In this document: one piece after another, positions 19,701 through 55,300 of the stretch
Layout of the letters: each line of letters opens with the position of its first letter
Numbering within the stretch: position 1 is the first letter of the stretch
Assembly (NCBI GenBank): GCA_037783545.1
Contig: JBBELK010000964.1
Coordinates: forward strand, 248,001 to 312,000
Direction of reading: 5' to 3'
Length of the DNA: 64,000 nucleotides
Source of the DNA: Henricia sp. BOLD:AAB3569
Taxonomy: Eukaryota > Echinodermata > Asteroidea > Spinulosida > Echinasteridae
Notes under the pieces: generated by a model
Told to the model about the DNA's origin: nothing
What the model saw: only the letters and a program-made list of their open reading frames with translations
Database searches by the model: none
Position numbers and translations under genes: made by a program

Positions 19701-22700
19701 AAATGTCTATTTCTTATTCTATAGTGCACTCACACAGGAGTAAATCGTGTTATGAATTCCGTCTTAATGACATTATAGCATTTTTTTAAGGGGTGGGTAG
19801 GCAATGCACCCTATCAGCAGTATGGATTAACACGAATAGCTAGATTTTTAAATACATGTAATGTGCACCAAGCTATAGTGAGTAGATTGTTTCTTTTGAA
19901 TAATTTTCACCTTTTAACTACATGTACTTTGAACAAGGTGAAGCACAAGGAGCAGTGAGAGCAACCTTACCCTAACAAGAGACAGTTATACCATCATCAG
20001 ATTGCTACACAAAGTCAAGAGTAAATTTTGCTCTGCCATCAAATACCGCTATATTTCTCTCCAAAGCAAAGACTTTGCCCTCTAATACACGGTACAGATC
20101 TAATTTCTATCAAAATATAAATTTAAAACTCTTCTATGATCCCCTAAACATTATGACCATTCCGAACATTTTGAGCAACCCAGAAAATACAACGATGTCA
20201 GAAGTACATTTCTGATAAGAAGTGGGTGTGGTCATTTTCTGGTACTTCTCCACGGATAGCGAATTTGGCACACATCCCACATTGTTTCTCAGAGTTAAAT
20301 TAGCTTACATCAGTTAAGTTCAGTAGTATATCTATGATGGATACAGCATTTCTGATAAGAAGGGGCGTGGTTATTTCCTGGATAGCGAATTTGGCACAAA
20401 TCCTAAGTTGTTCCTTGGGGTCAAATTATATTGTATCAGTCGAGTTCAGTAGATACAGCGATGTCGAAAGTAGCACTTTAAATGTGGGGCGTAGTCATTT
20501 TAAAAAGGGCGTGGTCATTTTCGGGAACTTCTCCCTAAGTGGCGATATTGACACACATCCCAAGTTATTCCTCGGGGTCAAATTAGCTTATCAGTTGAGT
20601 TCAGTAGTTTAGCTATGTCGGAAATAGCACTTCTGATAAGGTGGGGCGTGGTCATTTAAAAGGGTGTGGTCATTTCTGTGTATTTTTCCATCGACAGTGA
20701 ATTTGGCACAAATCCCAAGTTGTTCCTCGGGGTCAAATTAGCTTATATCAGTCAAGTTCAGTAGATACATGTACAGATATGTCGGAAGTAGCACTTCTGA
20801 TGAAGGTCGTGGTCATTTAAAAGGGCGTGGTCAGTTTTGGGTACTTCTCCCCAGGTAGAGATTTTGGGACATATCCCAAGTTGTTCCTCGGGGTCATATT
20901 AGCTCATATCGGTTGAATTCAGTAGATACAACTATGTCGAAAGCAGCACTTCTGATGAAGAAAGGGGCGTGACCATCTTAAAAAGGGCGTGGTCATTTTC
21001 GGGTATTTCGCCCCGGATAGCGAATTTGGCACACATCCCACGTTGTTCCTTGGGGTCAAATTAGCCTAGATCAGTTGAGAAATCCTCTCCTAAATTATGT
21101 GCATACATGTCTAAGCCAGGTCCTAGACTACATGTCGCTTGTGCATGCGAGTTGTAAAAAGTTTGTGTCAGGGGTCGCGCTCGCGTTATACATTACATTC
21201 GACATGCACATAGTCATACATGTACATACGCGGGCGCATCGTGCAATGAAAAAAACATTGAAAAACCATTGCATGGTTAGTGACGTAGCATTGAATAGAT
21301 TAAATATTGAACGACACGTGACCTGCTATCGTCCAATTAGATAACAAGGATCTGCTTGGGCGTTATATAAAAAAAGTAATCAAATATGAGTATTAAGAAA
21401 TATCATACAATGTGTTCATCAGAAATCAAACCCAAAACCTGACACACCAGGCAGATGCTCTACCAGCTGAGCCATGAGGCACAGTTGTATGCTCCATAAG
21501 GTCCCTTCCCCCAAGACCTCATACACACTGGGCGGATGAACAGCCAGCCGAACTATGAGGCACAGTGGTATACTCCTCAGGTTCCCCCCACCCCCCTTCC
21601 GAGACCTCTGACTCACCAGGCAGATGCTCTACCAGCTGAGCTACGAGGTACAGTGGTATACACCCCCAGTCAAAATTGTATGTCAACTTGTTTTCTTAGA
21701 AAGAATAGCAGAACACCAGTCAATTGTAATACACATTACCAGTGTTCTCCACAGGTCCAAATTTTGTCCGGGCACGCCGAAGTCGCTTACTGGGGGAGGG
21801 GGTTAGCAGTAGCGGTAGCATGCAGCAGCAGTCGCGGTGCACACGCCCCCCTGTAGCTACGCCGCTGCGCTGAGCATGCAGCGCCCTCCACAGGTGAACA
21901 CAATCGCCACTTGAGGGCGCTTTTAAAATAAAATCCATGCAACTGTCATGGCCGTTATTTTTATCGACACGGATTTGGGTCGCCAATCGGATAGATATGC
22001 GTGGGGGGGGGGTGGGGTGGGGGGGGGGGAGGGGGGGGGGGCTGTGGGGGGGGGGGGGGGTGGGGTGGGGGGGGGGGAGGGGAGTGGGGGGGTGGAAATT
22101 GATTTTTTATTTTATTTGTTTGTCCAGGCGGCCGAGTTTTTAGTCCGGGCGGAAAATTATTGTCCGGGTGATAACAGTACCTGTGATGATGTGGAGAACA
22201 ATGATTACAGACAATTTTGACTGCTAATGTTAACACATTTTTACAAAACAAATAAATGTTGGATAAAGCAAATTTGTTTCTGCTAAACAGCTTTATGAAA
22301 TTGGGCCTAGGCCTTCAGTGTTGCATGGAGGTGCAAATGAGCATAAATATTTGGTATGGTGCCTAACTGGGAACTTACAGATTCTATTAAACATTCTGTG
22401 CCGGCAAACATAGCCCCAATCAAGGCAAAGTTCTTAGCGTGGAAGACGCTCCTCTGGCCCATGTCCTTTAAGACATCTTTGGCTTTCTGCTTGGCAGCGA
22501 GATCAGGGTCAATGGGATCTACACTGGCAGCAAACAATCCAATGACGGCTCCCAAAGCAAAACCTGCAAATATCGTAAGTTAGGATAGGACATTTAACCG
22601 TTAAAAGAAAATAAAAACCGTGGAAAGAATTCTGCATAGTGGTCACCGCTAATTTTCCTTAATATGTTCAAGAAACACCAAAACATGTCAATATTCATCA

Positions 22701-24590
22701 AGCATTGGAATGTGCAGATTTGATGGAAAAACACAATTTCTAGATTTTGTGAGGAAACACTTAGAAATTTTTGTATTTTTTTGGTATACATTGAAGAAAG
22801 ATTTTAAGGTAATTACCTCCTGGAATCAACAGATAATGTAATTTTAAGATATACTTCCCACTTGCACTTTTGTCGCAAATGTTGCTTTTCTGTAGAAAAA
22901 TCACATTTTCTCCTTCAAATATTGCCTTCAGTTAGTGCACAAGATAACCATTCACGCGCGCGCAGCGCCCTCTGTTGTCGCACTTACGCACAGACCGCTT
23001 GCCGCGTCATTTTGTGCATTACTTTATGCAGTAATTTTATCATTTATTTATCTCAGAAATGCAACATTTGTGACAGAAGTGCAAGTGGGAAGTATATCTT
23101 AGAGTTTAATGATCTGTTGATTCCAGGAGGTACATGTAATTTCCTTAAAATCTTTGTTCAATGTACCGGTATACGAAAAAAATACCGAAATTGTTCAGCC
23201 TGTTTTTATGTTTTGCACACAAGGTCTGATAAGCCATGATCAACTTCTCAATTCTTTCCGAAAAATTGTCATGATCAACGCAACTTTTCAATAAACCTTA
23301 TCGACGTTCTCAATGCATCATGGAATTGGAGGACAAAATTGCCCGGCTAATTGTGCATAAACCTATGAGGCGGACGCCAACTCGGCAACCTTTTTTACTA
23401 ATTTTCACAAAAACCAAAACGATTTCAAGAATCAACCTCTCACCACTTTTTCTTTGATACATATCAAACATACTGACAAACATGTCCCGAAACAGACATT
23501 TTGCAAATGCGAGAAATCATCAGGGATTCCCTTCGTAGTGGGAGGGTCTAAGACGAGTATACCGCGCTCGCAGCTCGGCATGCATGTGCAATGCAACTCG
23601 GCATGTGCAATGCATGTGCCGTATCAGCACGGCACTCGTTGGATTGAGTATGCTGCACTGCAAGTTCGACAGTCCGTGTATGCGGACTCCCCCGACACGA
23701 AGGGAATCCCCGATGATTTCCTCGCAATTGCAACATTTCTGTTTCGGGACATGTTTGTCAGTATGTTTAATATGTATCAAAGAAAAAGTGGGGGGGAGGT
23801 TGATTCTTGAACTTTTTTTGGTTTTCGTGAAAATGTTCAGTTCACTTTATTTCCATACTCAAGATGAATTACAATTTTACTAATAAAAAAAATAGGTAGT
23901 ATGGGGGGAGCTCACAAAAAGTAAAGCTTATCGAGTGTGAGCTTCCTCAGAATAAAATATTAAGTTATAAAGTTAACCAAATTAATTAATAATGCAAATA
24001 AAAGTAATATGAGCCAGACTATTATTATAAGTAAATAATATAATATAAAAAAAAATCAGAAGCGCAGCAATGGTCAGCATTAAAATGAAAAAAAGCAATT
24101 AAGTTGAGCTGTGAGTGAGTTCAACAAACAAAGCAACGAAGTGAGTTAAAGCCAGGTAAGTAAATTAACTTGCAAATAAGGCAAGTAGATTAGTTTATAG
24201 TTAACACAATGCAGAGCAGGGCAGGTAAAAAAATTAGTAAAAAGTTGCCGAGTTGGCGTCCGCCTCATTCATAGGTTTACACACACTGACTTAGCAAGGC
24301 AAGGCATTGACTGATTGAGAATGTCGATAAGGTTTATTCAACGTACCTAACACACAGCTCATGACCGTTTTGAACGTGCAGCTTTCCATAGCTCGCTCCA
24401 CCGTCAGTTCCTCCCTGGTTTTGGGAGCTTGTGGCAACCCAAACTGCCTCACTCCTTCGTAATGTCGCTTCTTGTTTGGCCCAAGAAGAGAATCCATCAT
24501 ATCCACGATGTTTACCGGAGTCAGTTCGGTGTTATCCGAAGTAGATTCTGAACTGGATTTGTTCATGTTGGCCGATGTGTAAGTCGCCAT
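16674..24590 (-). CDS. TIMM22: TIMM22, mitochondrial carrier translocase channel, complete
   Basis: Channel subunit of the TIM22 complex, which inserts multispanning carriers into the mitochondrial inner membrane. Exons 24590-24347, 22563-22379, 18080-18008 and 16756-16674 join in frame with GT/AG sites to 194 residues, the length of human TIMM22. Four hydrophobic segments lie at about 70-95, 120-143, 153-168 and 172-190. Diagnostic stretches are VLKDMGQRS, AKNFALIGAMFAGTECLIES, YRGQSDWKNS and GFAAFSAAIDHYFH. Cys71 and Cys139 probably match the disulfide pair described for Tim22. Introns hold a hAT-like MITE, a 1-kb TIR element, a foldback element and tRNA-like repeats. Confidence 0.96.
16848..17234. 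mobile_element. MITE, ends CCGTTCTC(A/T)CTAGAGAAATCGCTT
   Basis: About 40-bp inverted ends; inner fragments repeat the same words (AATGAAGATT, TTCACAT). It is in TIMM22 intron 3, 92 bp from exon 4. Confidence 0.75.
17822..17989. mobile_element. 163-bp MITE family, copy 2
   Basis: TA-flanked copy related to 63136-63298. Its right end lies 19 bp from the TIMM22 exon 3 donor, inside intron 3. Confidence 0.72.
18008..18080 (-). CDS. TIMM22: TIMM22 exon 3
   Basis: Acceptor TTTTACAG, donor GTAATC. It encodes YRGQSDWKNSPMAGCVTGGL then IGYR. Enters in phase 0, leaves in phase 1. Confidence 0.95.
18127..18300. mobile_element. Near-full-length palindromic MITE
   Basis: About 80-bp arms meet at GAGGCGAAGCCGAG; the arms contain AATGGGAGGAATATTTTCAT and its complement. 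It lies 46 bp upstream of TIMM22 exon 3 (intron 2), so a strong hairpin could form near the acceptor. Confidence 0.85.
18405..21132. mobile_element. Foldback (TU-like) element with ~1.1-kb inverted arms of tandem repeats
   Basis: The left arm has seven tandem units of about 130-164 bp, marked by GAGGAACAACTTGGGA at 18486, 18648, 18808, 18965, 19093, 19257 and 19396. The right arm (20165-21124) has the same units in reverse orientation. The tips match: AGGACCTGGCTTAGACATGT at 18413 and its complement ending at 21124. Inner arm parts also match (19536-19590 vs 20098-20160). The unique centre is about 0.5 kb. It resembles Drosophila FB and sea urchin TU elements in design. Whole element lies in TIMM22 intron 2. 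Confidence 0.82.
21425..21665 (-). repeat. Three tandem tRNA-like units, 81-88 bp
   Basis: Each unit on the minus strand has a D-arm-like GCTCAGCTGGTAGAGCAT or a degenerate form, then CTGCCTGGTG. Anchors lie at 21451, 21532 and 21620. The first unit also has a B-box-like GGGTTTGATTTC. The middle unit is the most decayed. Confidence 0.65.
21999..22096 (+). repeat. G-rich low-complexity tract
   Basis: About 90% G with many runs of 6-10 G separated by T or A; potential G-quadruplex on the plus strand, which is the non-transcribed strand of TIMM22. Base calls here may be unreliable. Confidence 0.85.
22379..22563 (-). CDS. TIMM22: TIMM22 exon 2
   Basis: Acceptor ATTTGCAG, donor GTAAGT. It encodes residues 82 (part) to 143, with FALGAVIGLFAASVDPIDPD and NFALIGAMFAGTECLIES. 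Confidence 0.96.
22772..23186. mobile_element. hAT-like MITE, copy 3
   Basis: Flanks GAAATTTT (22764-22771) and GAAATTGT (23187-23194) form a near-perfect 8-bp duplication. It interrupts another dispersed repeat, uninterrupted at 47463-47630 (CACTTAGAAATTTACAAACC). In TIMM22 intron 1. Confidence 0.82.
23290..24338. mobile_element. 1.05-kb TIR element next to the TIMM22 exon 1 donor
   Basis: About 115-bp inverted arms start AATAAACCTTATCGAC and include GAGGCGGACGCCAACTCGGC. Arms are 23290-23405 and 24225-24338. The right tip is only 8 nt inside intron 1. A second element is nested at 23401-23834. Confidence 0.8.
23401..23834. mobile_element. Nested 434-bp MITE
   Basis: Inverted ends ATTTTCAC(A/G)AAAACCAAAA and about 100 bp of further arm similarity (CACTTTTTCTTTGATACATA, ACAAACATGTCCCGAAACAG). 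Confidence 0.8.
24347..24590 (-). CDS. TIMM22: TIMM22 exon 1
   Basis: ATG at 24590 in context AAGATGGCG. It encodes 81 residues plus one base; donor GTACGT. The Ser/Thr-rich N-terminus is followed by REELTVERAMESCTFKTVMS and the first helix. Confidence 0.95.
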
Positions 24591-37174: not shown

Positions 37175-39195
37175 TTGAACAATGTTGGACAACAGTGGGA
37201 AAAAAATCTAAAAATCATGAAAATTTCTCTCTCTTAGTTTTTACACCATGGTTTTTACAACTAAACTAAAATTTTACATGGTTTTATAACAATGGAAATC
37301 CAGGCTGGGGGCCTAAAATCAGACATGTCATAATTTTATTTCTCATTTTTATCATCAAACTTGTTCTAACATACATTGTTTATTTTTCATTTAATACAAA
37401 ATAAAGACGTTTATAGTGGTCGGATATGGAATTCAACCTACAAATTCAAATTATTTCTGCACTTGAAGTCAAATATTGAACTAATGAATCAGACAATGTT
37501 GACGAACATTTCCTTGGACAATGTTGGACAGCAGTGGGAAAAAATCTAAAAATCATGAAAATTTCTCTCTCTTAGTTTTTACACCATGGTTTTTACAACT
37601 AAAGTAAAATTTTACATGGTTTTATAACAATGGAAATCCAGGCTGGGGGCCTAAAATCAGACATGTCATAATTTTATTTCTCATTTTTATCATCAAACTT
37701 GTTCTAACATACATTGTTTATTTTTCATTTAATACAAAATAAAGACGTTTATAGTGGTCGGATATGGAATTCAACCTACAAATTCAAATTATTTCTGCAC
37801 TTGAAGTCAAATATTGAACTAATGAATCAGACAATGTTGACGAACATTTCCTTGGACAATGTTGGACAGCAGTGGGAAAAAATCTAAAAATCATGAAAAT
37901 TCCTCTCTCTTAGTTTTTACACCATGGTTTTTACAACTAAACTAAAATTTTACATGGTTTTATAACAATGGAAATCCAGGTTGGGGGCCTAAAATCAGAC
38001 ATGTCATAATTTTATTTCTCATTTTTATCATCAAACTTGTTCTAACATACATTGTTTATTTTTCATTTAATACAAAATAAAGACGTTTATAGTGGTCGGA
38101 TATGGAATTCAACCTACAAATTCAAATTATTTCTGCACTTGAAGTCAAATATTGAACTAATGAATCAGACAATGTTGACGAACATTTCCTTGGACAATGT
38201 TGGACAGCAGTGGGAAAAAATCTAAAAATCATGAAAATTTCTCTCTCTTAGTTTTTACACCATGGTTTTTACAACTAAAGTAAAATTTTACATGGTTTTA
38301 TAACAATGGAAATCCAGGCTGGGGGCCTAAAATCAGACATGTCATAATTTTATTTCTCATTTTTATCATCAAACTTGTTCTAACATACATTGTTTATTTT
38401 TCATTTAATACAAAATAAAGACGTTTATAGTGGTCGGATATGGAATTCAACCTACAAATTCAAATTATTTCTGCACTTGAAGTCAAATATTGAACTAATG
38501 AATCAGACAATGTTGACGAACATTTCCTTGGACAATGTTGGACAGCAGTGGGAAAAAATCTAAAAATCATGAAAATTCCTCTCTCTTAGTTTTTACACCA
38601 TGGTTTTTACAACTAAACTAAAATTTTACATGGTTTTATAACAATGGAAATCCAGGTTGGGGGCCTAAAATCAGACATGTCATAATTTTATTTCTCATTT
38701 TTATCATCAAACTTGTTCTAACATACATTGTTTATTTTTCATTTAATACAAAATAAAGACGTTTATAGTGGTCGGATATGGAATTCAACCTACAAATTCA
38801 AATTATTTCTGCACTTGAAGTCGAATATTGAACTAATGAATCAGACAATGTCGACGAACATTTCCTTGGACAATGTTGGACAGCAGTGGGAAAAAATTAA
38901 AAAATCATGAAAATTCCTCTCTTAGTTTTTACACCATGGTTTTTACAACTAAACTAAAATTTTACATGGTTTTATAACAATGGAAATCCAGGTTGGGTGC
39001 CTAAAATCAGACATGTCATAATTTTATTTCTCATTTTTATCATCAAACTTGTTCTAACATGCATTGTTTATTTTTCATTTACAGAATAAAGACGTTTATA
39101 AGTGGTCGGATATGGAATTCAACCTAAAAATTCAAATTATTTCTGCAAATATTAAACTAATGAATCAGACAATGTTGACGAACATTTCCATTTTG
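37175..39195. repeat. 338-bp tandem array, ~6 copies
   Basis: AATGTTGGAC anchors lie at 37181, 37520, 37858, 38196, 38534 and 38872, so the period is 338-339 bp. Copies are nearly identical except the sixth, which has deletions. Copies 2 and 4 share one set of variants (TTTCTCTC, ACTAAAG, AGGCTGG) and copies 3 and 5 another (TTCCTCTC, ACTAAAC, AGGTTGG), showing a 676-bp dimer. Confidence 0.95.
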
Positions 39196-40395
39196 TTTTT
39201 AGTTAACCAAACTGTGCAAATTTCCTTCAAGGGCTTCTGTCCTATCTACAAAGTAGTTTGCTGTTGTTCCCTGGAATTCGTAAAAACAGCTTCATATCCA
39301 CAAAATTAATGGGCCTTCTCAAAGCATTCTCCTCAAAGCACTGAAAATGGTGAAATTTTAAACATTTAGTAAACTAATAAACATCAAATTTAAATTTGTT
39401 CCATTAAACGTTATTCCAGTATATTTTCGGAGGCTTATGCAAGCAAGTTGCTCTAATTAATTTTCTGCAATTCTGCTTGCTGTAAAAACAAAAACATGCA
39501 CGAAGAATCAGAAAAAAAAGTATTGTTTTAAATAGGCCGTAAAAGGTCGATCCTTGGGTCACAACAATTTGCCTTATTTTTTGTTGGCCTAAATGAAAAT
39601 CAAATGGGTCATATTTGACTTTAGAAAATGTACAATTACTTTTGTAATGTACAATTACTTCAAACATTGTGTACAAAGCATGTGATAGTGAGTGAAATTA
39701 GTAGTTTTTAAGAAAGTGGGTGGTTCTTCACTCAGATTAATTCACTCCTAAATTTTTGTTTTTTTCTATCATATCTGAACTAACTGATGCTTGCAAGTCA
39801 TTTTAGTGACAAATAGTAGTGGATAACTTCTCTGAAATCGTTTAGCACTTTTTTTTTTACCGAAGCCAATAATATGACAAGCATGCCATAGTATAGAGGA
39901 GAAGAAAACAATCCCAGTCGTTTTCTTCCTCCATGCGTAAGCGATGAAATAAAATCGTGACCAAGCAGAAAATGCCCCAAGAAAATCTCTAAATGCCAGT
40001 CGTCTTCACTGGCCGCCCAATCATCACACCCGACCGTAGACCCGTTCACGGGTCTAACCCCACCGTACGAGCAACGCAGGCCGGCAAGCGGCAAGGCCCG
40101 GACGTACGGTACAGGCGAGCCACTGAGTGCAACGCGCAAGATAGCTTTGTCCGTGGACAACGTGTTTGCCTCATAATCATGTTTGCCCGCTGACTGCTGA
40201 TCGATCGATCGATCAGCGACTGGAAAAGCAGCGACATTTGTATGCACTGTCCTGTCCAGTGTGTACTCTGGGTACCAGACAGACCAGAGTTGTTGTGAAT
40301 TATGGAAATTAGATGACGTCACGCATTTCAACGTGTCACACAAAGGTATGCCAGGAATTCGCTCGGTATTTTGCGAGCGATTTATACGGAATATG
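39196..40395. other. Intergenic, no gene supported
   Basis: Holds a 181-codon minus-strand open frame (40343-39798) with no recognisable domain or splice context. GATCGATCGATCGATC at about 40200 is a short palindromic repeat. Confidence 0.5.
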
Positions 40396-40479
40396 AAAGA
40401 CTGTCTTTTCGACTGTATTTCAGGTGCGCCCTCTGGCGGCCAATGGTGAATAGTCTATGCTTGTACATCGTGTATTGCG

Positions 40480-41348
40480 CGCAAAAAGGCAGTCTTTCCG
40501 AAAGACTACATTTTGCGGTGCACAATCCACATGAGCAAATGTTTCGTACGTTACAGCGCCTAAAACCGCTCTTATGGGGACTTTTACTTGTCGAAGCATG
40601 TGCGCGCAACCAATGCGCAACCAATACACACAGAATGAGGCAATTTTGAGTTTTCCGCCATGGGACACCATGGGGACGTACGCGCGCGCGGCACGTGTAT
40701 ACAATTCAAAAAAGTATTTTGTTACATATGTATTACGAATAATTTTATTTGTAATTACGAAATAATAACTTGTTACGATGAATTTAGTATTTACAAATTA
40801 CTTATTTCATAAAATTAATTCATAATTATGGGTTATATTTAGTCATTTAGGAATTTGAAATTGTCATCGAAAATGAGGCCGGTCTCGTGCTTTTTTTAGG
40901 ATAACATTTGCAAGTGAAAAGACGCGTGATATGCAGTGTCAATTTGAAATTTGTCAATTATTCATTCTTAAGGGGAGTTCACACTATCGCGGAAAAATCA
41001 CACTGTTCCATTGGTTTGTACACAAACTGGTTTGCCGCAAACTGGTTTGCCGCTTGTGCGCGGCCTATCGCGAGCCCCAAGCCCCAAGCTACCAGAGTGG
41101 AATTTTCTATTTTGGAATAATCGGCGATTGGGAGCTCATGCAATGCGGTGAGCGCAGCGCGAAAGTGTGATTTTTCCGCGATAGTGTGTATCCGCCTTTA
41201 GGATAGGAAATATGAATCCGTAATTTAATTTCGTTACTTCAAATTAGTAATTTGTTATTAGGGATTGATTAATTCGTATTAATTCTTTATTACAAATTAG
41301 TGTAATGCGCAATTAGGAATTATTTTAAGAGATGGAGAATGCGAGTAT
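40480..41348. repeat. Diverged satellite fragment
   Basis: Matches the last monomers and spacer of the 25-37 kb units (CAAATGTTTCGTACGTTACA, CCGCCATGGGACACCATGG) with clear divergence. It is interrupted by 40971-41197 and followed by a SINE. Confidence 0.85.
40971..41197. mobile_element. Harbinger-like MITE, TTA target duplication
   Basis: Inverted ends of about 22 bp sharing CACTATCGCGGAAAAATCAC. Flanks are TTA (40968-40970) and TTA (41198-41200). The satellite units give the empty site TTATTCATTCTTAGGAAAAT. Confidence 0.82.
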
Positions 41349-42219
41349 GGGAGCACGTGTGGTCTAGTGGGTATGAATCGGATATGCCAATCAGAGGTTG
41401 TGGGTTCAAGCCCCACTATGACCAACGTGTCTGTTTCCCTGGGCAAGGCACTTGATCTCAGTTGCCTCGTCAATTTCAACCCAAGCGATATTTTGTGAGC
41501 TGTTATGGGAAATGCCACAATCTAAGTGCCGACAGGGTTGAGCGCCTGGCCAGCAGCCACCTGATGGTTCTGGTGATTTCCTGATGGCAGCGGTAATAAC
41601 ATCCTGAGATCTCAGGGAATTTCCACTCTGCAAAGCGACGTGACAATACCCTGAGGAAATACACGCAAATCTGTGGAGCGAGCCGGCTGTTGTCTTGAGC
41701 CAACTCACGCCCGAGTCATTTTTATGTAATTTAATCAATTCGGTCATGTTATGCCGAAAAGAAACAATTTCTATACTTTCCAGAAATTGTATTGGGTTCC
41801 GTTCCTTATGACTGTCCCATTCCTACCAAACTTTAAAACGACGAACTTTATTTACTCCGCAGTTTTTCAAATTAATAATAGGGATGCATGCTGACGAATG
41901 TAATGGAACGGATTCCCCAGTATTCTTTAAATAGCAGCCAATCGCCGACGCGGACAACGGCCAGCATTACCGAGTATTGTATCACATGCATGCATGGTGT
42001 TTACAATCTGCGCGCGTTACATTTGAATGCCTGCTATCGTGCTGCATAATGCACTGCAAGCGTCCTGATATGATTGGTCCAGCAGAGGCGACAAGATTTC
42101 TGTCGCTAGTCCCACCGCCAAATGGGGCCTTTTTCAACAGGGCCACTGTACGCAGGAGTTAGGGAGTGCTTTAAAGGGGCACTGTTGCAAGAGGATGCGG
42201 TAATAATGGCAACAGCGCC
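41349..42219 (+). mobile_element. CORE-SINE-like copy split by an inner element
   Basis: Same SINE as 3306-3627 (GGGAGCACGTGTGGTCTAGT). Its body runs 41349-41600 and resumes at 42197-42219 (GCGGTAATAATGGCAACAGC). The inner 41601-42196 element is flanked by GCGGTAATAA on both sides. Confidence 0.82.
41601..42196. mobile_element. 'R' element, copy 2, ~10-bp target duplication
   Basis: Inverse of 9021-9595, ends ATCCTGAGATCTCAGG and TTGCAAGAGGAT. Direct flanks GCGGTAATAA at 41590-41599 and 42197-42206. The length of the duplication suggests a Mutator-like mechanism, but the inverted match at the ends is only about 5 bp. Confidence 0.75.
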
Positions 42220-44000
42220 AGTCATAGGCGCGAGTTCTGTGGCGCGATACACACATATATTGTTGTATGTTTTGTGTGCAAAAGGCGCGTTCTTGAAAAG
42301 GCGTCGAGTAGAAACAGCCTGCCTTGTGAGTTGTGAAGACCATTTCCAAAACCATATCGATGCATCTTTCCACGGCAACGATACCCTAAACATTCGGAAT
42401 TTGTGAAATGATTTGTAAGGACGGCCAGCACCCGCGTACCAAAGGGCAAATTACAATTTTGGGACACCGTCCTTAAAGGCCTATGTATCATTTGCAAGAA
42501 AAACTTGTTACATATTCGCGGTATAAGAGTGTAACATATCTAAGGAAGTAAGTTGGTAAACTAGCTTGAAGAAATTTTAGTTACTTAGATGCATCAATGC
42601 TTCAGAAAACCTTGAAAAATGAAAATCTATATATGGATTTTGTGTACAAGTGAATGGTAAAAAAAAGTCCCGTGCACATAACTTTTTTTCTTCAGAAAAC
42701 CACCTTCGGTTGTCAATTTCCAGCATGAAATACCATGTGTTTTGTTACCATTGCTATCAACACTTTAAGTAAGATATTTCCTGTCAACTCATGAGAAACA
42801 AAATTGGGTCATATACTTATTAAACCCCTTCGCCGCGCGCGGCTGGCTGGGCAGACTGCACATGCAGTTCGGTTTTTATATGTGTGCGGGGAACTTCATC
42901 TGCAGTGCAGTGTAGTCTGAATTGCTGGGCGGTACAGGCAAATTACTGCAGGTAATTTCGTTCACAAGAATGTGCAGAAAAAGTCACACAAAAAACCTAG
43001 TCATTTTTGCGTTCCTATAGGCGTGATACACACCGCCACTGTGTGGCACGCTTTGTGCACGCAAGCCAGCGCCTAAATAGGCGATCACAAAACAGCCTTC
43101 CGCGAACCATTTACAAACTCGACACTTGTGCACAGATACCAGACACAGTACTCCACCAAAACAACCGATTTTGCGTTATTCAGTGTGATGGACACCGAAA
43201 TCCTGAAACTGCGCAATTTCTATGGGTGGGTTGTTTCTATCGTAAGATGGTCGCGAACCGGCCTTAAGGGGACTATTTGTTACTGTAGCGTTTGTACACA
43301 AACCAATGCGGAAATATAGCGCATGAAATTACACGATTTCATGTTTCTCTGGTGTGCGACACACAACATTTTGTAGTGCACATTTCGTATGAGCAAATGT
43401 TTCGAACGTGACAGCGCCTAAAACCAACCTTATGGGGACTTTTACTTGCCGAAGCGTGTGTGCGCATCCAATACGAAATCAATGCACACAGAATAAGCTA
43501 ATTTGACGTTATCCGCCATGGGACACCATGGGGACACTATGTATTTCGTAATTACGAATTATTTATTTTCGTTATTACGATATATTTAAATTGTAATTAC
43601 GAATTTAACAAATTACTTAATTCGTAAAAGTATTTCTTAATGGGATTAGCATATTATTTAAAATTGGTACAGCTGACCTCTGACATGTTTAGATTGGTTC
43701 CCGCGAGAGATGGTATTCTGCAATAAGCGATAGGATCGGGAACCGGTCTAGTACATGTCACATCAAAGGTCTGCTGTACTGCTAATTAAGAATTAGAATT
43801 AATTCAATCAAATGTTGGTATAATTTTTCTAAATCGGTCACGTACGTTTTCCATCATCTACTTCGTCCACACCACGCGACAACTACAATCACCACTGATT
43901 CATTTTTTCACGCGATTGTGCCCTCCTCTCTCAACAACCTTCAGAAGAAAACACCTTTCCAGGACATTTTGTACCCCCGGTTTGTGCACCAGTAAACAAC
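42220..44000. repeat. Diverged satellite fragments
   Basis: Monomer-like pieces at 42230-42400 and 42975-43560, spacer-like AT-rich DNA at 43530-43660, a hairpin MITE at 43667-43779 (ends GTACAGC(T/A)GACCT), and the start of a new unit at 43860-44000. The unit resumes at 48358. Confidence 0.75.
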
Positions 44001-44880
44001 TAGTCTTTGTGAAAGACTGTCTTACGTTGCTTGGTTCGTGTACGTGCGCGGTCGACATTGCACCGTGTGGACAGGGTACTAGTTTATGTGCCATTGGGTT
44101 CAGTCTGTAAGACAGTCTTTGGAATCTCTTCACCTGTCACGTGAGACCAGGGACTTTGACCTGAACATACATATTCAAATAAGGTCATTTTGGAATCGCC
44201 CAATCGCAAAGATGATATCATTGCTCATGAATAATGATGTAAGACTGGTGACATGATAACTCTATAACTAGATCTAACGGATATGGACGTACGGAAGCGC
44301 ACTGTACGCCCATGGAGGAAGGAAAGATGGTACGCCCTACGAATGTACCGATGTGCTCCCCACTAAGTCCAAGTTGGCAGCGTAAAACGTTCGTCGTTGG
44401 ACTTTTTTAGGTTTGTTTCTATAGATTTCTGAGTATAAATAATGACCGCCAGAAGCAGGGGCTAATCAAAATTAGGAGAGACGGACAGATCTTCGAAGGA
44501 CATTTTACAAAAATAAAAAAATTCGAACCGTGTCCGGAAACTGGGCCATGCGGCAACGATAAATGTTTTCCTTCCTCTGTTGATTTAACGAGTAAGAATT
44601 TACAAGTCGGACATCACTATTGCTATTCCTTGACAAAATGACTAAATAACCAATGTTAGCCGTCATTTAGGTGCAGATCTGATTGGCAGGAAGAAATGAC
44701 GATTATATTTTAATTTTGACAAAACTTAGTAAGTATAGATGAAGTTGACTTGTAAATTCTTTCCTTTTTCATATAAAATAATACCATTGGTAAAGGGTTG
44801 AGAAGTTGATCATAATTGTTTCTTTAAAAACAAAATGACTCGGCTAGCATTGTAATGTGCAGATTTGATGGGAAAAAATA

Positions 44881-45019
44881 GACCCCTTGCACAGCGGCCA
44901 TGACAGAAGGCAGTCACCTGGTCACATTGCGTCATGCACTAGTATGCACTTTATGGATCTATTGTCACACATTTAAATATAAAAACCTGCCCTCTGTCAT
45001 GGCCGCCGTGCAAGGGGTC
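44881..45019. mobile_element. 139-bp MITE, TA flanks
   Basis: Inverted ends GACCCCTTGCAC(A/G)GCGGCCAT of about 35 bp, with TA on both sides. It is nested in a dispersed repeat shared with 22695-23275 and 47463-47630. Confidence 0.85.
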
Positions 45020-45770
45020 TATATCAAGTAGCAAAAATTTAAGATTTTGGGAAAAAACACATTTGTTCAGCCTGTCTCATTTGTTTTGCACACAAGGTCT
45101 GAAGCCATGATCACCTTCTCAATTCTTTCGGGTACTGGTACCTTATTATGAGAAATTGCCAACTATTTTGTTGTTGACAATTTGCAAATAAATTATTTAC
45201 CATTTATTCAACACAAAAACCATGCATTTGTTCAGCCTGTCTCGCATGTTTTGCGAGAAATTGCCAGATACTTTTCTTTTTTTTTTTTGACAATTTGCAA
45301 ATGAATTATTTACCATTTATTCAACACAAAAACCATGCATGTATTTTAAAGGGTTTTGAATTATGGCCGAGTGAAATTTTAAAAGGCATACTTTAGTTCT
45401 GTAATGCATTTGGTACCATTTTTGAAAGTTTACCAATCATGTCTTTAAACCTAAGGAATGAAACATTTTCTTGTGATAAGCAGATTGTTTTACTATAGTA
45501 CTAATAATTAGTACAGATCTTATAAGTGACGTTATTAATACAGCTTGCTGTGTTGCTATATCAATGCAGGCACGTTTATGAATTTACTTGTCTTTCCAAA
45601 AAAATAATTGTCCCAAGCACTGATGACTATACATGTAAAGAATAAACAAAAACTTGGAGGTCAGAGTTCAATTGTTATGTAGCATTTATTTCGTGTAGTT
45701 GGAGGCATGCTTCCCAGAGGACTCAAACTGTCAAATTTTGTTCACATGTACGCTTTTCTATACAGGAGCA

Positions 45771-45895
45771 GGGGTTGATATCACAAAGAATTGTGACGTG
45801 TCGCAAAAGTAGCCAAATCCATCGGAACTCGCTGAACCCGTTGCGAGATGTGATGGATTTGGTATACTTGTTACACGTCGCAAGTCTTTGACCCC
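45771..45895. mobile_element. Hairpin MITE, GGGGT(C/T)GAT(T/A)TCACAAAG family, copy 1
   Basis: Arms include AAATCCATCGGAACTC and GTGATGGATTT. A second copy is at 57649-57795. Confidence 0.78.
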
Positions 45896-47296
45896 ATGGC
45901 CCAAATTCATTCTGCTCTTTAAGTTTAAGCAGGAATATACATGTACATGTACCTTTATAGCTCAGAAAAATGAACTTTCAAAATCCACTAGCTAATCTCC
46001 TGACATCAGTAAGCCAAGCATCACCACGAAATTCCCTCCTTGGACAGTTTGCTCAAAATTTCAACATGTAGGTTCATTCATGATTATTAAAGAACTGTCC
46101 TAGTTACATGTACATCTGCATGGAAGTTGTACCTTTCAATTAGGCCTCCATGTTATGTGAATACACCATGGAGTGTACATGTACTTACATGTAGCTGATT
46201 ACATGCTCAAAAAAGAATTTGTCAAGCAAGGCTTCAATACAGTATAATTCATTCTGATTAAAGACTACTGTTTTGTGTGTGGCTGTCCGTTGCAATTGAC
46301 ATAAGTCACAAAGTCGTGCAGCTAGCTGCAGGACATTTGAAATAAAAAGTCTTGTGTAGCTTTAATTTTCCATCATTCATCAAATATGGAAACCCCAGAC
46401 ACGAAGCAGCAACAGGACATTTTACATTAAAAGAAGACCAAAGCGTGGAGACAAAGGATTGCACACTCTTCTGTTGGGAGAAGCCACAAGTAGTCAGGAA
46501 ATATACGGACTGATGAGAATCCCGTGTAGATGGAGGTCAATCTTATTCCTCATTTTCTGAAGAAAAAAGCAAAAGAATCGCATACGATAGTAAATCGTGA
46601 GAATTTGGTAAGAATCTGTCTAAAACAGCGTTTAATTGTAATTACTAATTTCATTTTACCCCGTGGCTCATAAAATGCACATCAAGGACACAGCATTTTC
46701 CACAGGTCTGGTCTCTACTACACTGTTTCAAGCAGGTATGAGTTGTTCATGCATAAAGCTGAACTGAACACTTGTAGGCAAAAGTGCCCTGTTTTAACAT
46801 GATTTTTGTAATATCAGCATGAAAAGCTTGTTATAAGGTGGATCTTGTATTAATAATTATGTGATTATTGTCACTGTTCCCCTGTACAGAGACTGCAAAA
46901 GGAAATACCAGTAAATGCTCAACATGGGTTTGTGCCCGGGTTTGTGTGTGCCATCATGGGTGGATTGACTGCTATCTTGTGGCATTGGAATTTTTGTTAA
47001 AGAAAAGATTATAAATTACAACAAATTTTACCTCGCAGAAATACTTTGCCGACAGAGATTCCATATATGTACCGTACTTTATTGAAACTCTGCTAATTTG
47101 TGGGTCTGAGGAGAAAAAAGAGAAACGAAAGTGAAAGAAATGGTTAGAATGCAATGGAGCATGACATAATTAAAGTGTTTTCAAGCAAACACTTGAAATA
47201 TTTTCATTGCTAAAACGTGTTTCCTCCAGATTGGAAGTGTGAACAAATAGAGCCCATGCTATGATGCTTTCCTGCTAGCAGCTTATGTGCGTTTCC

Positions 47297-47395
47297 CCAC
47301 ATGGCTATATTGTCCCCCCGCCCACATGGCTATATTGTCCCCCCGCCCCCACCTTGTCCCCCCACCCCGCCCCCTCCCCCAGCCCCCATCTGGAG
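47297..47395. repeat. C-rich short tandem repeat
   Basis: CCCACATGGCTATATTGTCC is repeated twice, followed by a C-rich run. Confidence 0.8.
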
Positions 47396-48357
47396 GACAA
47401 ACTCAGGAGGGTCGTCACCGTGACAAGATTTGATCATAATTGTTTTCTTTAAAATTAATCATCTAGCATTGGAATGTGCATATTTAATGGGAAATTAACA
47501 ACATTTCGAGTGACAATTTAAGATTTTGCGAGGAATCACTTAGAAATTTACAAACCTGTCTCATATGTTTTGCAAGCAGTATGCACGCAAGGTCTGAATC
47601 CGTGATCAACTTCCCGATTCTTTCCGAAATCATTAACATTTCCACAATAAAATTACGATTTCTTAACGGAATTTCACGTTTTGGTGATATTATGCCGTAA
47701 TAACTTAAAACAAATGTAGTGCAGGCATTTCAGTAAAATTTTACCACGAATCTGCATCATGTAGCATGTGTATAGTGTAGGCCTATGCATGGAGGAAGAA
47801 ACATTATTTTCTTCCTCCATGGCCTATGCAAACATGTCGTCCTTCAGCATATGCGGATATTTTGTAAACACCATCATTTTACAGCATTCCTACCTTTCTT
47901 CAGATCTTGCACCTACGCCGCTAAGAAGTACCTGCATCCTTTGCTAAACTGTCTGTCTTTTGATATAATCCTCGTCGCTTCTGTTAATAACACGGTGACG
48001 ATCCGCCATCATAAATCCTCAAAATCACCACGCACATTTTTGTTTATCGTTACGTCGTGTGGAAAGTCTTGCATACAGTACAACTACTTCGAAGTACAGA
48101 TACACGACCTTCACACGCCGTACATTCGGAAACCGGTTATGCTAATCATTACGTCACGTAGGAATGTGCTCGGGATTTCGCGAGCAAACCACGTGACACG
48201 TGAAGAGTTTCCAAAGACGGTCTTACAAACACTACCCATAAACTAGTTCCCTGTCCACACAGTGCAATATCGACCGCACGTACGGCGCATAAACTAGTTC
48301 CCTGTCCACACGAACCAAGCAACGTTAGACCGTCTTTCACAAAGACTAGTAAACAAC

Positions 48358-48860
48358 ACGTTGACACATAACACAAAAAATAGTCATTCTGTGTTTCCTG
48401 TATGCGCAACACACGCCGCCTCCGTTATATGTTGTGTGTGCAAATGGCGTGCTCCTAAACAGGCGAATAGAAACAACCTTTCGAGGACATTTTGTACCCC
48501 AATAACACACACATTGTCAAGTCACACACAAAACAGCCGTGTTCGTGTTTCCATAGGCGCGGCACACACCGCACTGTTGCATGTTCTGTACGCGAAGACA
48601 CGCTCCTAAACAGGCGACTGGAAACAGCCTTGTGGGGACTTTTAGTTGCCGAAACTCATGCGCATGACCAATGCAAAAATGCTACACACAGGATGAGGCA
48701 AATAGGTATTTTCGGCCAACGGTAATACCACTGGTATGGACTACAACATTCACATTGCAAATTTCACACGGTACGGTTTCCGTCCGCAACTAGTGCCTGA
48801 AACCAGCTTTACGAAGAACATTTTGTGGCCGAGATGTACGTAAAAGTAAAACGCAAACGC
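48358..48860. repeat. Diverged satellite fragment, right part
   Basis: Continues the unit broken at 44000 with three or more monomers (ACACACGCCGCC, GCTCCTAAACAGGCGA). 48861-49495 shows no gene; it holds two AATAAA signals on the minus strand (49166-49171 and 49194-49199) that could serve the next gene. Confidence 0.8.
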
Positions 48861-49495
48861 GAAACGGCTTGAGCACTGGTCATATCATTAGGAGGGCTTA
48901 GTTAGGGCATGGAGGAGGAAGTGTACGCAGGTATTTCATTTAGTATATATTAAGCATTCCGCTAAATCCGCTTGAATGATTTTGTATATGATTATACAAT
49001 TGTATCTGCATAACAGACACACCTTGTCACAGTATCCTTAACTTATTGTGAGTAGTGTATGTAGAAGATCCTTCTTCAAAATTAGCCCACCACTTATAAA
49101 TTTTGAGGGTACGGGTATCATCTTTTCAGGCGTAGTCCCCTAATGGCTGTGTTCTCAGTATCGGTTTTATTAAAAGCGATGAGAATTAATTAATTTATTG
49201 TAATGTCCCGTCTTAGTTTTTAGTCTGTCATTATTGCCTGGTATGGTGTATATTTCTTTAAGTGTCAAGTATTTGGGTATTGGTATACCTACAGGGATGG
49301 TTTTGTAGACGGGTGCAATACCTATGCAGTTAAATCAATTGTTTGTGTTTAATAACTTGTTCAATATCTTATTAGGTATGTCTTAATGTCTTCAGTAAAG
49401 TAACAAATCAACCAATCAATTTGAACAACAAAACACCGCATAAACAAATTTGTGGTTTCAATTAATAGAAGATTTGCAAACATCAGCAACTGTGC

Positions 49496-52384
49496 TTAGC
49501 AAAACTCGACAGAGTTGAGCGAGTCCTCTGCGAACCTAGTGACGTAATGGTCTCCCTCCTTGACCATGTACAACCTCTTCCCGTCCATCTCGATCTGCCG
49601 GAGAACCTCTGGGGAGATGTCCTCCTGAGTGGCAAGAGTTCGGTAGTACTCGATCAGAGTTTCCTGCGCCGCTCTCGCCCGGCTGGAGTACCTCTGGAAG
49701 ACCTCGTGGAGCGATTCGCTAAACTCTCGCGAGACCTCTGCGCACTGTCTCGCGAGACGACAGACGAGGGCGTGTTTGTAGACGTCATCGGGCTCGATGC
49801 CGTCCATCATCGTCAAAAGGCGCTTCTGGTTCTTGCACGAGTGGTAGGCGATGGAGTTTGAACATGAATTGATGATATTGATGGCGTTGAAGGCTACGTC
49901 GAGCGGGGTGGTGTCGGTGAAGAACCGCTTGGACAAGTCCTCCAGACTGATATTTGGCTCCACGTAGTTAGCAGGTCGTTTGATGCGATCTTCTGGACCC
50001 CACGGCCAGATATCCTGCAAGTTACAGGCATGAGTGGGTCTCGGAAAGTGGCCCAACTCATCAACAGCATGGTTGATTTGTCCTGGATGCAACTGCTCGG
50101 ATGGTGAACCACTTGAGGTCTCTTCTTGCGACCGTAGCAGTGGGGTCACAGTTGGTGGGGTCCATTCCTTTCCCAGATTCTCCCCGGCTCCATCCACTCC
50201 ACCCTTCTCAACACCACGGTCTACTGCTGGATCATCTTTGGATTTTCCTTTCTTCCCCAATCGCTCCTCCTTAGCCTCAGTTGAACCCTCTGCTGACCCG
50301 CCGTGTTTCTTAGATCGATCTCTTACACCAGTTCCTGTCCTAATCGTGTCGAAATCTGAACGTTTTTCTTGTGGATTGCCTTCATTCTTGTCGAACTCGT
50401 CCACACCAGGGTAAATGTCTCGTTCATTCTCTCGCTGCTGGGAGTGCGTGTCACCTTCTCCCCGTCCGGAACCCGAGTCAGCTCGAACATTGTCGGAGGT
50501 TTCTCCACTCACTGAGCTTGTGTCTGACAATTTATCAAGGGTCCTTGGAAGTCGCCTGTCACTGATAAGCTGACCATCAGGGATCTCGGTGACGTGATCA
50601 GGTAGAACTAAATACTTACATTTGCCTTGAGTGTCCTCAGTGGGTATTTTCCGAATGTTGCATCTTTCGGCCTCCAAGCGCTTAGCTGAGGTTTTTCTTG
50701 TGCTTGGGTCGTCCCGTTTCTGAGGCGGCGATTCGGTGTCGCTGGGTGGGGTTTTCGCTATTAGATCTAGATTCGGTGGTTTTGTGTCATTTTCGGGTGT
50801 CCTAAAGCATCGGACACCGATAGCGATATCGTGACCACTCAAAGATCCTTCCAGGTCTGGGCGAGCGTCATCCGTGGTTTGAATCCCTCCTTCGCGAAGT
50901 ACAAGTTTCTCTGAAAGGATATCTTTCGGTCCCGTCTCGTCTTCATTTTGGTGACCGGGTGTTTTTATATCATCTATTTTAGACGTTTTGGTCTCTCGAT
51001 TTCTCGGAATGTAAACAGAAAAACTGAGAAGTTCTGTTTCACAGTTATCACCCAAAATTACTTCCGAATCCTGTGCTTCCATTGGGGATGAAACTGGACT
51101 CTGCTCACCATCTTGGCTACGTGAAGAATGAATTTCGCTGTGCTGTTTATTAACGGCTGCTGATAATTCTTCGTAACATTGCGCATCAAAAGTTGGTCTC
51201 CCGGCTGGCGGTTCCTGATGTATTGTTTTGTTGTCTTGTGGTTTACTGTTAACGGTAATGGGATGACTTGGTGAAGTTTTAATTGTGTTGCAAGCATTTT
51301 CTGCTTGTAAAGTCTGCTGCTCGTTAACTATGTCGCTGTAGATGATGCAATCATCCTGGTCACTCCGGTTTTCACTAGCCGCTGATGAGATCATCGCCTC
51401 CTCCTCCTCTTCTTGTTGACTTCTTTGAGATTCTTCTCCCGGTGCTATCTCCGAGACTGAGGTTTTCTCTTCTTCGTTCTGTTTTTCCCGTTCTGCACAG
51501 GTGAGTGCCGCAAAGCTCTTGGGTCGCTCGTCCGTGTGAAGTCTGGTGACGATCCCAAAAGACACTAGACTTTCTGCTCTTGCTATGGCCGATTTCTCTG
51601 GCATTCCTCGAGTGAGATCAGTATCCGCAACGACTCCGTCCGGGACGTCATCACTCCTCGATTGAAGGGTTACAACTGTCTCATCTTCGGATGCGTTTGT
51701 TACATATTCGGCGCCGCCTTCGTCACATTCGGAATCTGTGTGTGCTGAAACTGGGAGAGTATCGTCTGGGCCAAACAGTGGTTCTGTACTTCCAAATTCA
51801 AGGCTGTCTTGTGGTTGCAAACTACAAACTGATTCCTGGAGACTTTCATATTGGTGGTTCCTATCAGCAATAGACTCGTTGGTTAGTGCATGGCTGTCTT
51901 CTTCAAAAATATTGCTGAGGTATCGTGTTTTTCTGAAGTCTCCTCTTTGCTTTGAGCAGCTTGTCCTTTGTTGACCAGCTGCCTTTCCTCGCCGTGGTGT
52001 CCCATCGGCGTTCGGTGATTCTTCCAGGACTCCGAGACGACGGTGACCGTGTCGATGGCAGAGATCGACGGGCTTTAGTTGCTTGAGCCCCCGGGGAAGC
52101 CGCTCGAAGCAGATGCTACCGGCCTGGGTGGGCTCCACCACGGCGCATGTTGCTCGCCACGGCGGGTTCAAGTGGGACTGGGACTCTCGCTTGTAGGTCC
52201 CACCGCCTTCGAGTGTGGCCTTAGCACGAGGGGTCGGCGGCAAGTCACCGCACGGGCCCTGGGTCGGAGCGGCTGGGATGGGAGGACTGCGCCGTCCCGG
52301 TACGGGTCGTTGTCCATAATTCGTCACACGTGGGGTCGGGATTTGCCATGGAAAGTGTGGTTTTGGACAAGCCGATTCTCGAGT
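49496..52384 (-). CDS. Unrecognised gene, terminal exon (962 aa + stop)
   Basis: Acceptor CATTGCTTTACAG then ACTCGAGAATCG. The frame stays open for 962 codons to TAA at 49496, far beyond chance. The first 19 codons before the GTG at 52327 have no ATG, so this is not a first exon. Acidic patches such as EEEEEAM lie in the middle. The C-terminal domain ends SLNSVEFC. Confidence 0.85.
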   Translation of the reverse strand, partial: TRESACPKPHFPWQIPTPRVTNYGQRPVPGRRSPPIPAAPTQGPCGDLPPTPRAKATLEGGGTYKRESQSHLNPPWRATCAVVEPTQAGSICFERLPRGLKQLKPVDLCHRHGHRRLGVLEESPNADGTPRRGKAAGQQRTSCSKQRGDFRKTRYLSNIFEEDSHALTNESIADRNHQYESLQESVCSLQPQDSLEFGSTEPLFGPDDTLPVSAHTDSECDEGGAEYVTNASEDETVVTLQSRSDDVPDGVVADTDLTRGMPEKSAIARAESLVSFGIVTRLHTDERPKSFAALTCAEREKQNEEEKTSVSEIAPGEESQRSQQEEEEEAMISSAASENRSDQDDCIIYSDIVNEQQTLQAENACNTIKTSPSHPITVNSKPQDNKTIHQEPPAGRPTFDAQCYEELSAAVNKQHSEIHSSRSQDGEQSPVSSPMEAQDSEVILGDNCETELLSFSVYIPRNRETKTSKIDDIKTPGHQNEDETGPKDILSEKLVLREGGIQTTDDARPDLEGSLSGHDIAIGVRCFRTPENDTKPPNLDLIAKTPPSDTESPPQKRDDPSTRKTSAKRLEAERCNIRKIPTEDTQGKCKYLVLPDHVTEIPDGQLISDRRLPRTLDKLSDTSSVSGETSDNVRADSGSGRGEGDTHSQQRENERDIYPGVDEFDKNEGNPQEKRSDFDTIRTGTGVRDRSKKHGGSAEGSTEAKEERLGKKGKSKDDPAVDRGVEKGGVDGAGENLGKEWTPPTVTPLLRSQEETSSGSPSEQLHPGQINHAVDELGHFPRPTHACNLQDIWPWGPEDRIKRPANYVEPNISLEDLSKRFFTDTTPLDVAFNAINIINSCSNSIAYHSCKNQKRLLTMMDGIEPDDVYKHALVCRLARQCAEVSREFSESLHEVFQRYSSRARAAQETLIEYYRTLATQEDISPEVLRQIEMDGKRLYMVKEGDHYVTRFAEDSLNSVEFC

Positions 52385-55300
52385 CTGTAAAGCAATGAAT
52401 AGTAAATTAATAAATCCTGTACACCTCGTTATGAATCAAAGTAATTCGTGACGTCATGTCGATATATTAATATCGTGAGATAAAAGCGAAGGGAGCTGCG
52501 TGACAATGGAAGACTTTTGAAACACGTGGTGGCAGCAAACAAACCAGTCCTTTTCCATTGTTTACGTCAAGTTTGAGCTAAAGTGCGCATGCTCAGTATT
52601 ACAGTATGACGTAGTAATGAAAAGGACCGGTTTAGTTTGCTGCCACCAAGCGTCTCAGAAGTGCCCCCTATACAACCAAACAAAACATTTTGAAGGAATA
52701 GTGTAATCCGAGCAACATTTAGTGAGCCCGTCCTTTTGTGGTTATTCCATTGTTACTGCGGTGTATTTCTATTGTGACGTCATGTAAATACACCGCAGTT
52801 TTTATTCGTCGAATTAGTCTTATTTACTATGCTTCTGTGAATAATTCAATTCTGCAATTGGACCATCTTGTCAAATCTTTCATCAGCTTTTTATCGCCCC
52901 AAACTGCCAAATTTGTACCCAAACAGGGAGCATGAGTGTAAATTTGAATGCATGACCACCTTAATAAAGAGGCCACCTGGGGCCAATTTCATAAAACATT
53001 TTAGCACCCGATTTCTGTTTTAGCAGCCCTCTCTCCATTTCATAAAACTGTTTAAGCACTAGCAAAACAAACCGCATGCTAACCTACCGATTTTTTGCTT
53101 AATTTGCGACACATATTCCAACAGACACACAATTTTCAGCTGTTGTTGAAATATTCCAGTTAGCGACATGCAAGGGTCCTCTGTGTTAGTGATAATCATC
53201 CCAAATCGATGATGCATACTTGAAAATGTTGACGTCGACTTTTGAAAGCAGACGATGAACGTGTTCGAACATAGTCTAGGCTCTAGACGGTCATTATGTG
53301 TTGGATACCCGACTGCCGCAAGAGGGCGTAATCACGCGATAGACTCGTTCGTAGTCCTATCACCATATCGTTTTGTCAAAATTGACTCTCGCGGCGATCG
53401 GTTTTCGGGACGGACGTTCAAAACTAAACAATAACAACGTCTAGGGCCTAGACTAGTTCGAACAAAACAGACGACAGTGTTGCGCGCGTACACTCTACGC
53501 GCGTAGAACAATTAACAAGCTTTATGAAATAGGCCCTTGCTTGAGGAAATTTGCTCGTCAGCAATGCGCGCGCGCCAAATTCGTGCCACGAAATACGCAG
53601 CTCTATAGCAAAGGCATGGAGCCGGAGCTGCGTATTTCGTGGCACGAATCCAAAATGTTTGATTAAGCGTAACATGTTTTATGAAATTGGCCCCTGTTTA
53701 GTTGGTCCCAAATACCATGTTACTGCAACCTTTTGTAAAGAGGCAAAACCTGTTTATAGTGGCCAGTTTTTTTACGGCCCCGAGGGTGGCCGATATATAT
53801 ATAGTTTCACTCTATTTGTATACAACTCCTCACCTTATGTCTAATGTGTATTGTTGCGGCACACAGGACCGAGTCTGCAAACTCGGGGTCTTTCTCGATA
53901 GCTATTGACGGAAGAGGCTTTTTCTTGGAGAACTGTTGGAGAATTAAGAATATAATTTGCATAATACCAAGACAAAAATGGCCTGGGTGAGCTCGGGTAG
54001 TGGTGGCTGACACCGAGGAAGACACGAGTATCACGTAATGGCAAACCGAAGTTACCAAACGCTCTGGTGTAAGTTCGTATTACACGTGGACGCTAATCGA
54101 ACAAAACTATATTACAAAATTTATATATACAACACCAGTTAGAGGAGCGTATTCAGATTTTTCCAGAAAATGAATTTGGTTTTAACAATTATATAAAATA
54201 CCGTCCCAAAATGCTATCCATGGGAAGAGAGCAGGAAATTTGCAATCTCAAATATGGATGTGAATGTAAAAAGGTTGGTGCGATTACTGAACCTCAACAT
54301 ACTTCTCCCTTTTGTTAACGCATTAACCCCCTCGCTAAAAGTGAGAGATTTCCTTGAATTCCTTGGATGTTTGAGACGCAATGGGGAACAATGAAAGGGT
54401 ATCCCTGTCACATATGACGATGATAGCATATGCAGCACGACATGGGCCCTACCATTGTGTCTTAAACATCCGAGGAATTCCAAAGGAATCCCGTCATATG
54501 CAGTTTTTAGGGTTGGTTGGTGCGTTAACAGACGGGAAGAGTGTGTTGAGTCAAAGGTGCGTTAGGGCTTGGGGGGTTCTGGTCCTTAGGCCCCATATCA
54601 TGCTGGGTATAGATGATAGAGACATATTTATATCGCGCACATTTATCCCAAGGATGCTGAAGTCGCTGTCACATTATCACCCCGCTCAATGGGCTCAGTA
54701 ATATCATTCCTTAATCCTTCTCAACTCCCTGGGGAGCATGCAGTCCTGTGCAGCTTTAATGCGCACAGGGACTAATCAAACACATCAGCTTTCACTACCC
54801 TCACAGGTACCCATTTCCTCCTGGGTGGAGAGAGGCAATTCATGGCAAAGTGCCTTGCCCAAGGGCACACAAACCACGGACACGGGCAGACCCGGATTCG
54901 AATCCACGACCTGCAGAATTAACCAACTTGAAGGTATAGACTGCCCAAGTGAATACGTCATCGGCATTCCTTACTTTTAGTACCCCGTTCCATAAAAGAG
55001 ATTAAATGTGTCGAATTTATCAAACCACTTACCTATAGTGTTTCTCTTGATCTTTTTCTTTAGATTGACTAGATTATTTTTGTGAAAAGAGGGCAGGGTT
55101 TTGATTTTTGAGGGAAATTGTGGGGTGAAAACAGGAATAACTGCCTAAATGTTTAACAAATTTCAAGATGGCTTTTTATGCTCAATGAGCATGAAAGGCC
55201 GTTTTTGATTGGCTGAGAATGGTTTCACTTTAATACCCGGTCTCTGATTGGTCAATGAGTGGGAGTTTTTTACAACATGAAACAGCAGCAGGCCAAATTC

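Follow-up and report, generated by a model that had tools for sequence, protein, structure and literature searches.

The 4.35-kb inverted-repeat element at positions 44001-48348 of the window, which is the whole analysed stretch of 64,000 nucleotides from Henricia sp. (C964:248001-312000), belongs to a real, recently active, non-autonomous transposon family with terminal inverted repeats (TIRs) that is MULE-like by its marks. Defined common ends, 9-bp duplications, dispersed and near-identical copies, and insertion into an existing repeat unit were all observed in the searched genome of 740.7 Mb (2104 contigs). A Mutator-like (MULE) transposase supplied in trans most probably moves this family of non-autonomous DNA transposons.

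Insertion site and ends of the element

The element on the plus strand is 4348 bp long, has a G+C content of 0.39 compared to 0.41 for the window, and its limits were set by the TIRs and the target site duplication, with the same ends found elsewhere. It begins with TAGTCTTTGTG at 44001 and closes with CACAAAGACTA at 48348. An exact copy of the 9-bp sequence GTAAACAAC is located on either side (43992-44000 and 48349-48357), and these are the only two occurrences of this 9-mer on the plus strand of the window. Based on the alignment of the flanks, the left and right parts of an interrupted satellite-like repeat unit cover 43935-44000 and 48358-48480 (plus strand). If the element is excised and one 9-mer is kept, the two flanks can be aligned across their join with further units of the window repeat. 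Those at 34058, 35681, 25380, 29330 and 32001 are 67-69% identical, and the one at 27453 matches less closely. The interrupted unit differs from the others by about 13 additional bases immediately to the left of the duplication, and the other units read GTAACACAAC where the interrupted site reads GTAAACAAC. Since the flanks form one repeat unit once the element is removed, the insertion is real on internal evidence. Positions 44001-48348 are thus confirmed as a TIR element that was inserted into a pre-existing satellite-like repeat unit, and the original prediction of a 4.35-kb element splitting one satellite unit, flanked by a 9-bp duplication and ending in TIRs of about 150 bp, was borne out.

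Self-alignment places the left TIR ('T-end', starting with TAGTCTTTGTGAAAGACTGTCT) at 44001-44143 (143 bp, plus strand) and the right TIR ('G-end', starting with TAGTCTTTGTGAAAGACGGTCT on the minus strand) at 48190-48348 (159 bp). The two agree in 72% of 167 aligned columns, gaps included, with ungapped blocks that are 86-95% complementary. The right TIR is longer and contains the 24-bp sequence CATAAACTAGTTCCCTGTCCACAC twice (48237-48260 and 48288-48311); the largest gap of the TIR-to-TIR alignment, 24 columns, lies at this doubled sequence and is accompanied by two smaller gaps.

Within the left TIR, an outer arm (AAGACTGTCTTAC, 44013-44025, plus strand) can pair with an inner arm (GTAAGACAGTCTT, 44107-44119, minus strand), as identified from sequence, fold and alignment, and a matching pair is present in the right TIR. 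The arms were surveyed in 40 ends sharing the 17-base start, taken from the window and from loci L009 and up, of which 25 were of the left and 15 of the right type. Wherever the script detected the inner arm, the pair was T:A in left ends (23 of 23) and G:C in right ends (9 of 9); the inner arm went undetected in 2 of the 25 left and 6 of the 15 right ends. Because the copies share ancestry, this difference is a single matched change between two end types. Compared with simple base shuffles, the predicted TIR folds (RNA energies) score 1.6-1.7 standard deviations under the mean, which is a weak signal. If the pairing were kept on purpose, the ends might be recognised as hairpins or dyads, and the family would be a MULE-like group with foldback-type ends in which a 4-kb repeat cargo and a form of about 0.2 kb are amplified in parallel; this reading is improbable.

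Copies of the family and their age

Exact matches in the genome number 529 (260 + 269) for the end 22-mer TAGTCTTTGTGAAAGACNGTCT and 103 (49 + 54) for an interior 26-mer, with 0 matches for the control in both cases. Using the first 200 bases as query, at least 42 matches were found, with 40 of 572 candidates scored. Around other copies, 20 stretches were examined, and an inward end pair is seen in 13 copies, the window copy included. An exact 9-bp target duplication flanks ten of these 13, all ten being different (GTAAACAAC, GTTGGGTGG, CCCTAATGT, CTAGCGCCA, GGACAACCC, CTGCAGCGC, ACGTGCACG, GCAGGTCTG, GCTTGGTAT and ACACGGGGC). At one further copy (L020) the duplication measures 8 bp, and none was seen at L009, a rearranged cluster for which two pairings were tried, or at L021, which spans 8.9 kb with inserts. 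No inward end pair was present in the stretches examined at L011, L015-L019, L026 and L027. The recurrence of the shared ends hundreds of times against a control of 0, in conjunction with exact duplications at 10 of 13 copies, is beyond chance, and further copies with the same TIR, which the original prediction had proposed to search for, do exist.

The copy at L015 is split by a long intact frame that, by reading of the frame, resembles the pol of a Gypsy-type LTR retroelement, and the split is attributed to the insertion of this Gypsy-like element. At L009 (C24:614531-624343), one copy keeps its orientation on the left up to about 1714, its remainder follows inverted, and a complete inverted copy comes next; CATGCTTCC and its reverse complement adjoin the two right ends. 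This layout may reflect a joint use of ends from two copies, or an assembly error. At C648:98563-100200, three interior matches are spaced by exactly 806 bp, so a piece of the element may have been tandemly amplified there.

Among the first 100 of the 529 ends (C1-C120), neighbouring ends formed 33 inward pairs within 40 kb and 34 ends remained unpaired. The sizes of these 33 listed pairs fall below 1 kb in 18 cases (17 of them at 166-269 bp), between 1 and 6 kb in ten and above 6 kb in five. Judged from coordinates only, the short class, with end spacings of 166-269 bp, resembles a MITE version of this family.

The age of the family was assessed in an alignment of 12 complete copies with the window copy as reference. 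The window copy differs from L009 by 12 substitutions in 4339 sites and from L010 by 11 in 4344, and from the remaining nine aligned copies at 1.5-2.8% of ungapped sites. Since the closest copies are only 11-12 substitutions apart in about 4,340 sites, the family has moved recently. A more diverged copy, at C34, has 81% identity in its main stretch. Taken together with the near-identical copies, it shows that the long form represents an old lineage with recent activity. The near-identical copies also suggest that an active transposase is present in the genome now or was until recently.

Interior and coding capacity

The recognisable parts of the interior are repeats. A dispersed module of about 218 bp was found with a module profile in nhmmer in two copies on the plus strand. 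Copy A consists of a first part at 44788-44877 and a second part at 45026-45143, separated by a 145-bp palindromic insert at 44878-45022 (36-bp arms, 94% complementary; self-alignment and nhmmer), and copy B is located at 47426-47637. Repeat searches added a 70-bp direct duplication spanning 45163-45345 (45163-45232 and 45276-45345, 91%) and a 25-bp tandem repeat with 2.1 copies at 47296-47348, both on the plus strand. Outside the element, the module occurs in the window at 6592-6725, at 39658-39831 and in two parts at 22693-22766 and 23180-23263. Outside the window, one copy lies in a separate insert of L051, and L026 is weakly matched at 3792-3894 and 4746-4850 (E 1e-5 to 1e-4).

The original prediction that the element carries no transposase holds to the extent that none is recognisable with Pfam among its eight stop-to-stop frames of at least 70 AA. 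A Pfam scan of all eight frames and of a neighbouring 979-AA frame gave no family at cut-off. Weak matches to IL12p40_C (E 0.0045, 17.9 bits) and Circovir2_Orf4 (E 0.17, 12.6 bits) do not reach the curated 25 bits and were taken as chance. The majority of the indels among the copies are not multiples of three, and Rfam gave no match at the gathering threshold in 40000-53000 of the window. The neighbouring 979-AA open frame, on the minus strand at 49499-52435, has no Pfam match at an E-value of 1 or better and is perhaps an exon of a host gene. On the other side of the element, a 338-bp tandem repeat with 6 copies and 97% matches covers 37175-39189.

The size of the element without a transposase had raised the question of captured host DNA. 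A Pack-MULE-like origin, with host gene sequence captured between the TIRs and mobilised by them, would account for a long transposase-free interior between MULE-like TIRs, and Pack-TIRs do occur in animals according to PMC8277862. In the 100 animal reference genomes covered by this source no Pack-MULE is reported, and nothing found here conflicts with this. As in Pack-TIRs and Pack-MULEs, TIRs enclose non-transposase DNA, but the recognised contents here are other repeats, namely the dispersed module and the palindromic insert, instead of pieces of host genes. The lack of a Pfam family at cut-off in the eight frames and a G+C content close to that of the surroundings also speak against gene capture. 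Furthermore, 16 of 20 matches of the interior 26-mer on C2-C120 adjoin element ends, with a correctly oriented end at most 4.5 kb away; interior matches far from the nearest correctly placed end are located on C43 (twice) and C117 (25-27 kb) and on C57 (13.5 kb). No free parental locus for the interior was seen on C2-C120 with this exact 26-mer, which is blind to a diverged parent. The interior recurs at about a hundred sites genome-wide and is thus no cargo peculiar to the window copy. Gene capture is therefore not supported by these results and is considered very unlikely. We infer instead that the long interior is ballast, made up of other repeats that were gathered in an ancestor and amplified along with the ends.

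Superfamily and source of the transposase

For a family of this kind, a MULE transposase would act in trans, recognise the TIRs of about 150 bp and cut the target with a 9-bp stagger, presumably as part of a cut-and-paste step. According to PMC6446971, the target duplications of MULEs measure 8-11 bp and their TIRs 14-500 bp. The family agrees with both ranges, as its duplications are 9 bp in 10 of 13 copies, 8 bp in one and absent in two, and its TIRs are 143 and 159 bp long. The Pfam family MULE (PF10551) has 19 matches over the cut-off in the genome with all 56 candidates scored, so MULE transposase domains are present. Nevertheless, a TIR of the element was found within 1.5 kb of none of these 19 loci. 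The TIRs share only stretches of 11-19 bases with them (E 3.4 or worse), and the single match of the whole element below E 0.01, 42 bases of the C-rich part to L030 (E 4e-4), was taken as low complexity and rejected. Among the ends listed, five of the 19 MULE loci share a contig with an end, and the nearest is 4.8 kb away on C1081, on the outer side of the end.

Some of these MULE loci form families of their own. L034 and L035 (C216, C808) represent a family whose ends are inverted arrays of a 16-bp GGTCGTTTCGTACCC-like repeat. L046 and L047 (C69, C293) belong to a family of about 2.4 kb with open frames of 592 and 595 AA and 98% protein identity, which has probably been active recently. Both families were considered as partners and rejected, since their limits (GGTCGTTTCGTACCC and CCCGCGGGC, respectively) differ from the ends of the element. 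The group L036/37/39/40/41 runs past the examined stretch on its left side. Four MULE-domain loci lie in a row at C504:607053-644117 (L029, L031-L033), 12-13 kb apart and with proteins that are 92-99.7% alike, which is perhaps a local amplification.

Large forms with the same ends were also inspected. For three of the four interior matches that lie far from an end (those on C43 and C117), 1.65-1.68 kb were read inward from the distant left end (L050, L051 and L052). At L050 the element stops at about 615 and a tandem repeat follows. L052 has an insert of about 0.4 kb at about 110, and the element stops at about 311. At L051 (C43:1303000-1304680), an insert of about 1.29 kb at about 126 has its own inverted ends (near CTATATATAGGAACTAG) within the TIR of the copy, after which the element resumes to the end of the piece (about 407). 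L050 and L052 have nothing in common outside the element parts. One common giant autonomous form does not look likely from these reads, which diverge from the element at about 615 (L050) and 311 (L052). The end pair on C34 (7.97 kb; 4.5 kb read) is a diverged copy with an insert read as a tandem repeat, and that on C71 (8.13 kb; 4.0 kb read) starts with a copy, after which comes an insert whose frame was read as gag-like. On C104 (4.5 kb) and on C109 (10.6 kb), both ends are present with no exact match to the interior 26-mer, and these pairs are candidates for an autonomous copy.

The MULE assignment of the original prediction thus stands in part. The 9-bp duplication and the long TIRs fit, while the autonomous relative it called for was not seen within 1.5 kb of the 19 MULE loci, and since no transposase with these ends was found, the superfamily can only be inferred. 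The family resembles non-autonomous TIR-type MULEs in its 9-bp duplication, long TIRs and many copies, and in that no transposase can be recognised within it, and differs from them in having no partner found and in an interior of about 4 kb that partly consists of other repeats. Besides the missing TIRs at the MULE loci and the two readable MULE families that end otherwise, the two of 13 two-ended copies without a duplication, which are rearranged or nested, count against this assignment. A transposase of another superfamily may be the mover.

The decay of an autonomous element is an alternative that overlaps with the preferred reading. The 4.3-kb form would then be a worn remnant whose transposase gene has decayed, which is compatible with present movement in trans. 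The copy at L048, about 81% identical to the window copy, has the same interior order, which makes the interior old; a gene may have been part of it in the past. The eight frames of at least 70 AA show no trace of a transposase, though a badly broken gene would escape a scan of these frames, and this origin is regarded as rather unlikely. hAT elements have target duplications of 8 bp, a length seen in 1 of 13 copies here as opposed to 9 bp in ten, and were rejected for this reason. Rehavkus, a MULE relative in which the family would be moved by a PHD-finger transposase, is listed in Table 1 of PMC6446971 with a 9-bp duplication and TIRs of 26-400 bp, and the family falls within both. A minisatellite before the 3' TIR would have a counterpart in the 25-bp tandem repeat preceding the right TIR. 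However, this repeat is very small and separated from the TIR by about 0.84 kb, and 5 of the 11 other aligned copies (L013, L014, L022, L024 and L028) have lost the stretch in part or entirely; no convincing minisatellite array was seen. Rehavkus is an unlikely assignment. According to PMC8101967, Merlin (IS1016/IS1595-related) shares 8-9-bp duplications and possible long TIRs of 24-462 bp with the family, but its TIRs carry a conserved terminal 5'-GG. Both element ends in the window and the 37 ends listed, which were picked by their match to the TIR, begin with 5'-TAG. Merlin is disfavoured because its ends begin with GG, and is highly improbable.

Movement in trans by a MULE transposase remains the preferred explanation for this family. 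Compared with the descriptions of MULE, Rehavkus, Merlin and Pack-TIR elements, the family is presumably a new one of an established type. Apart from its animal host, it is a matter of ordinary genome annotation with an ordinary mechanism. Across 100 animal genomes, MULEs are rare according to PMC8277862, with a median number of 0. Due to this rarity, a recently active, high-copy, MULE-like non-autonomous family is of some note in an animal.
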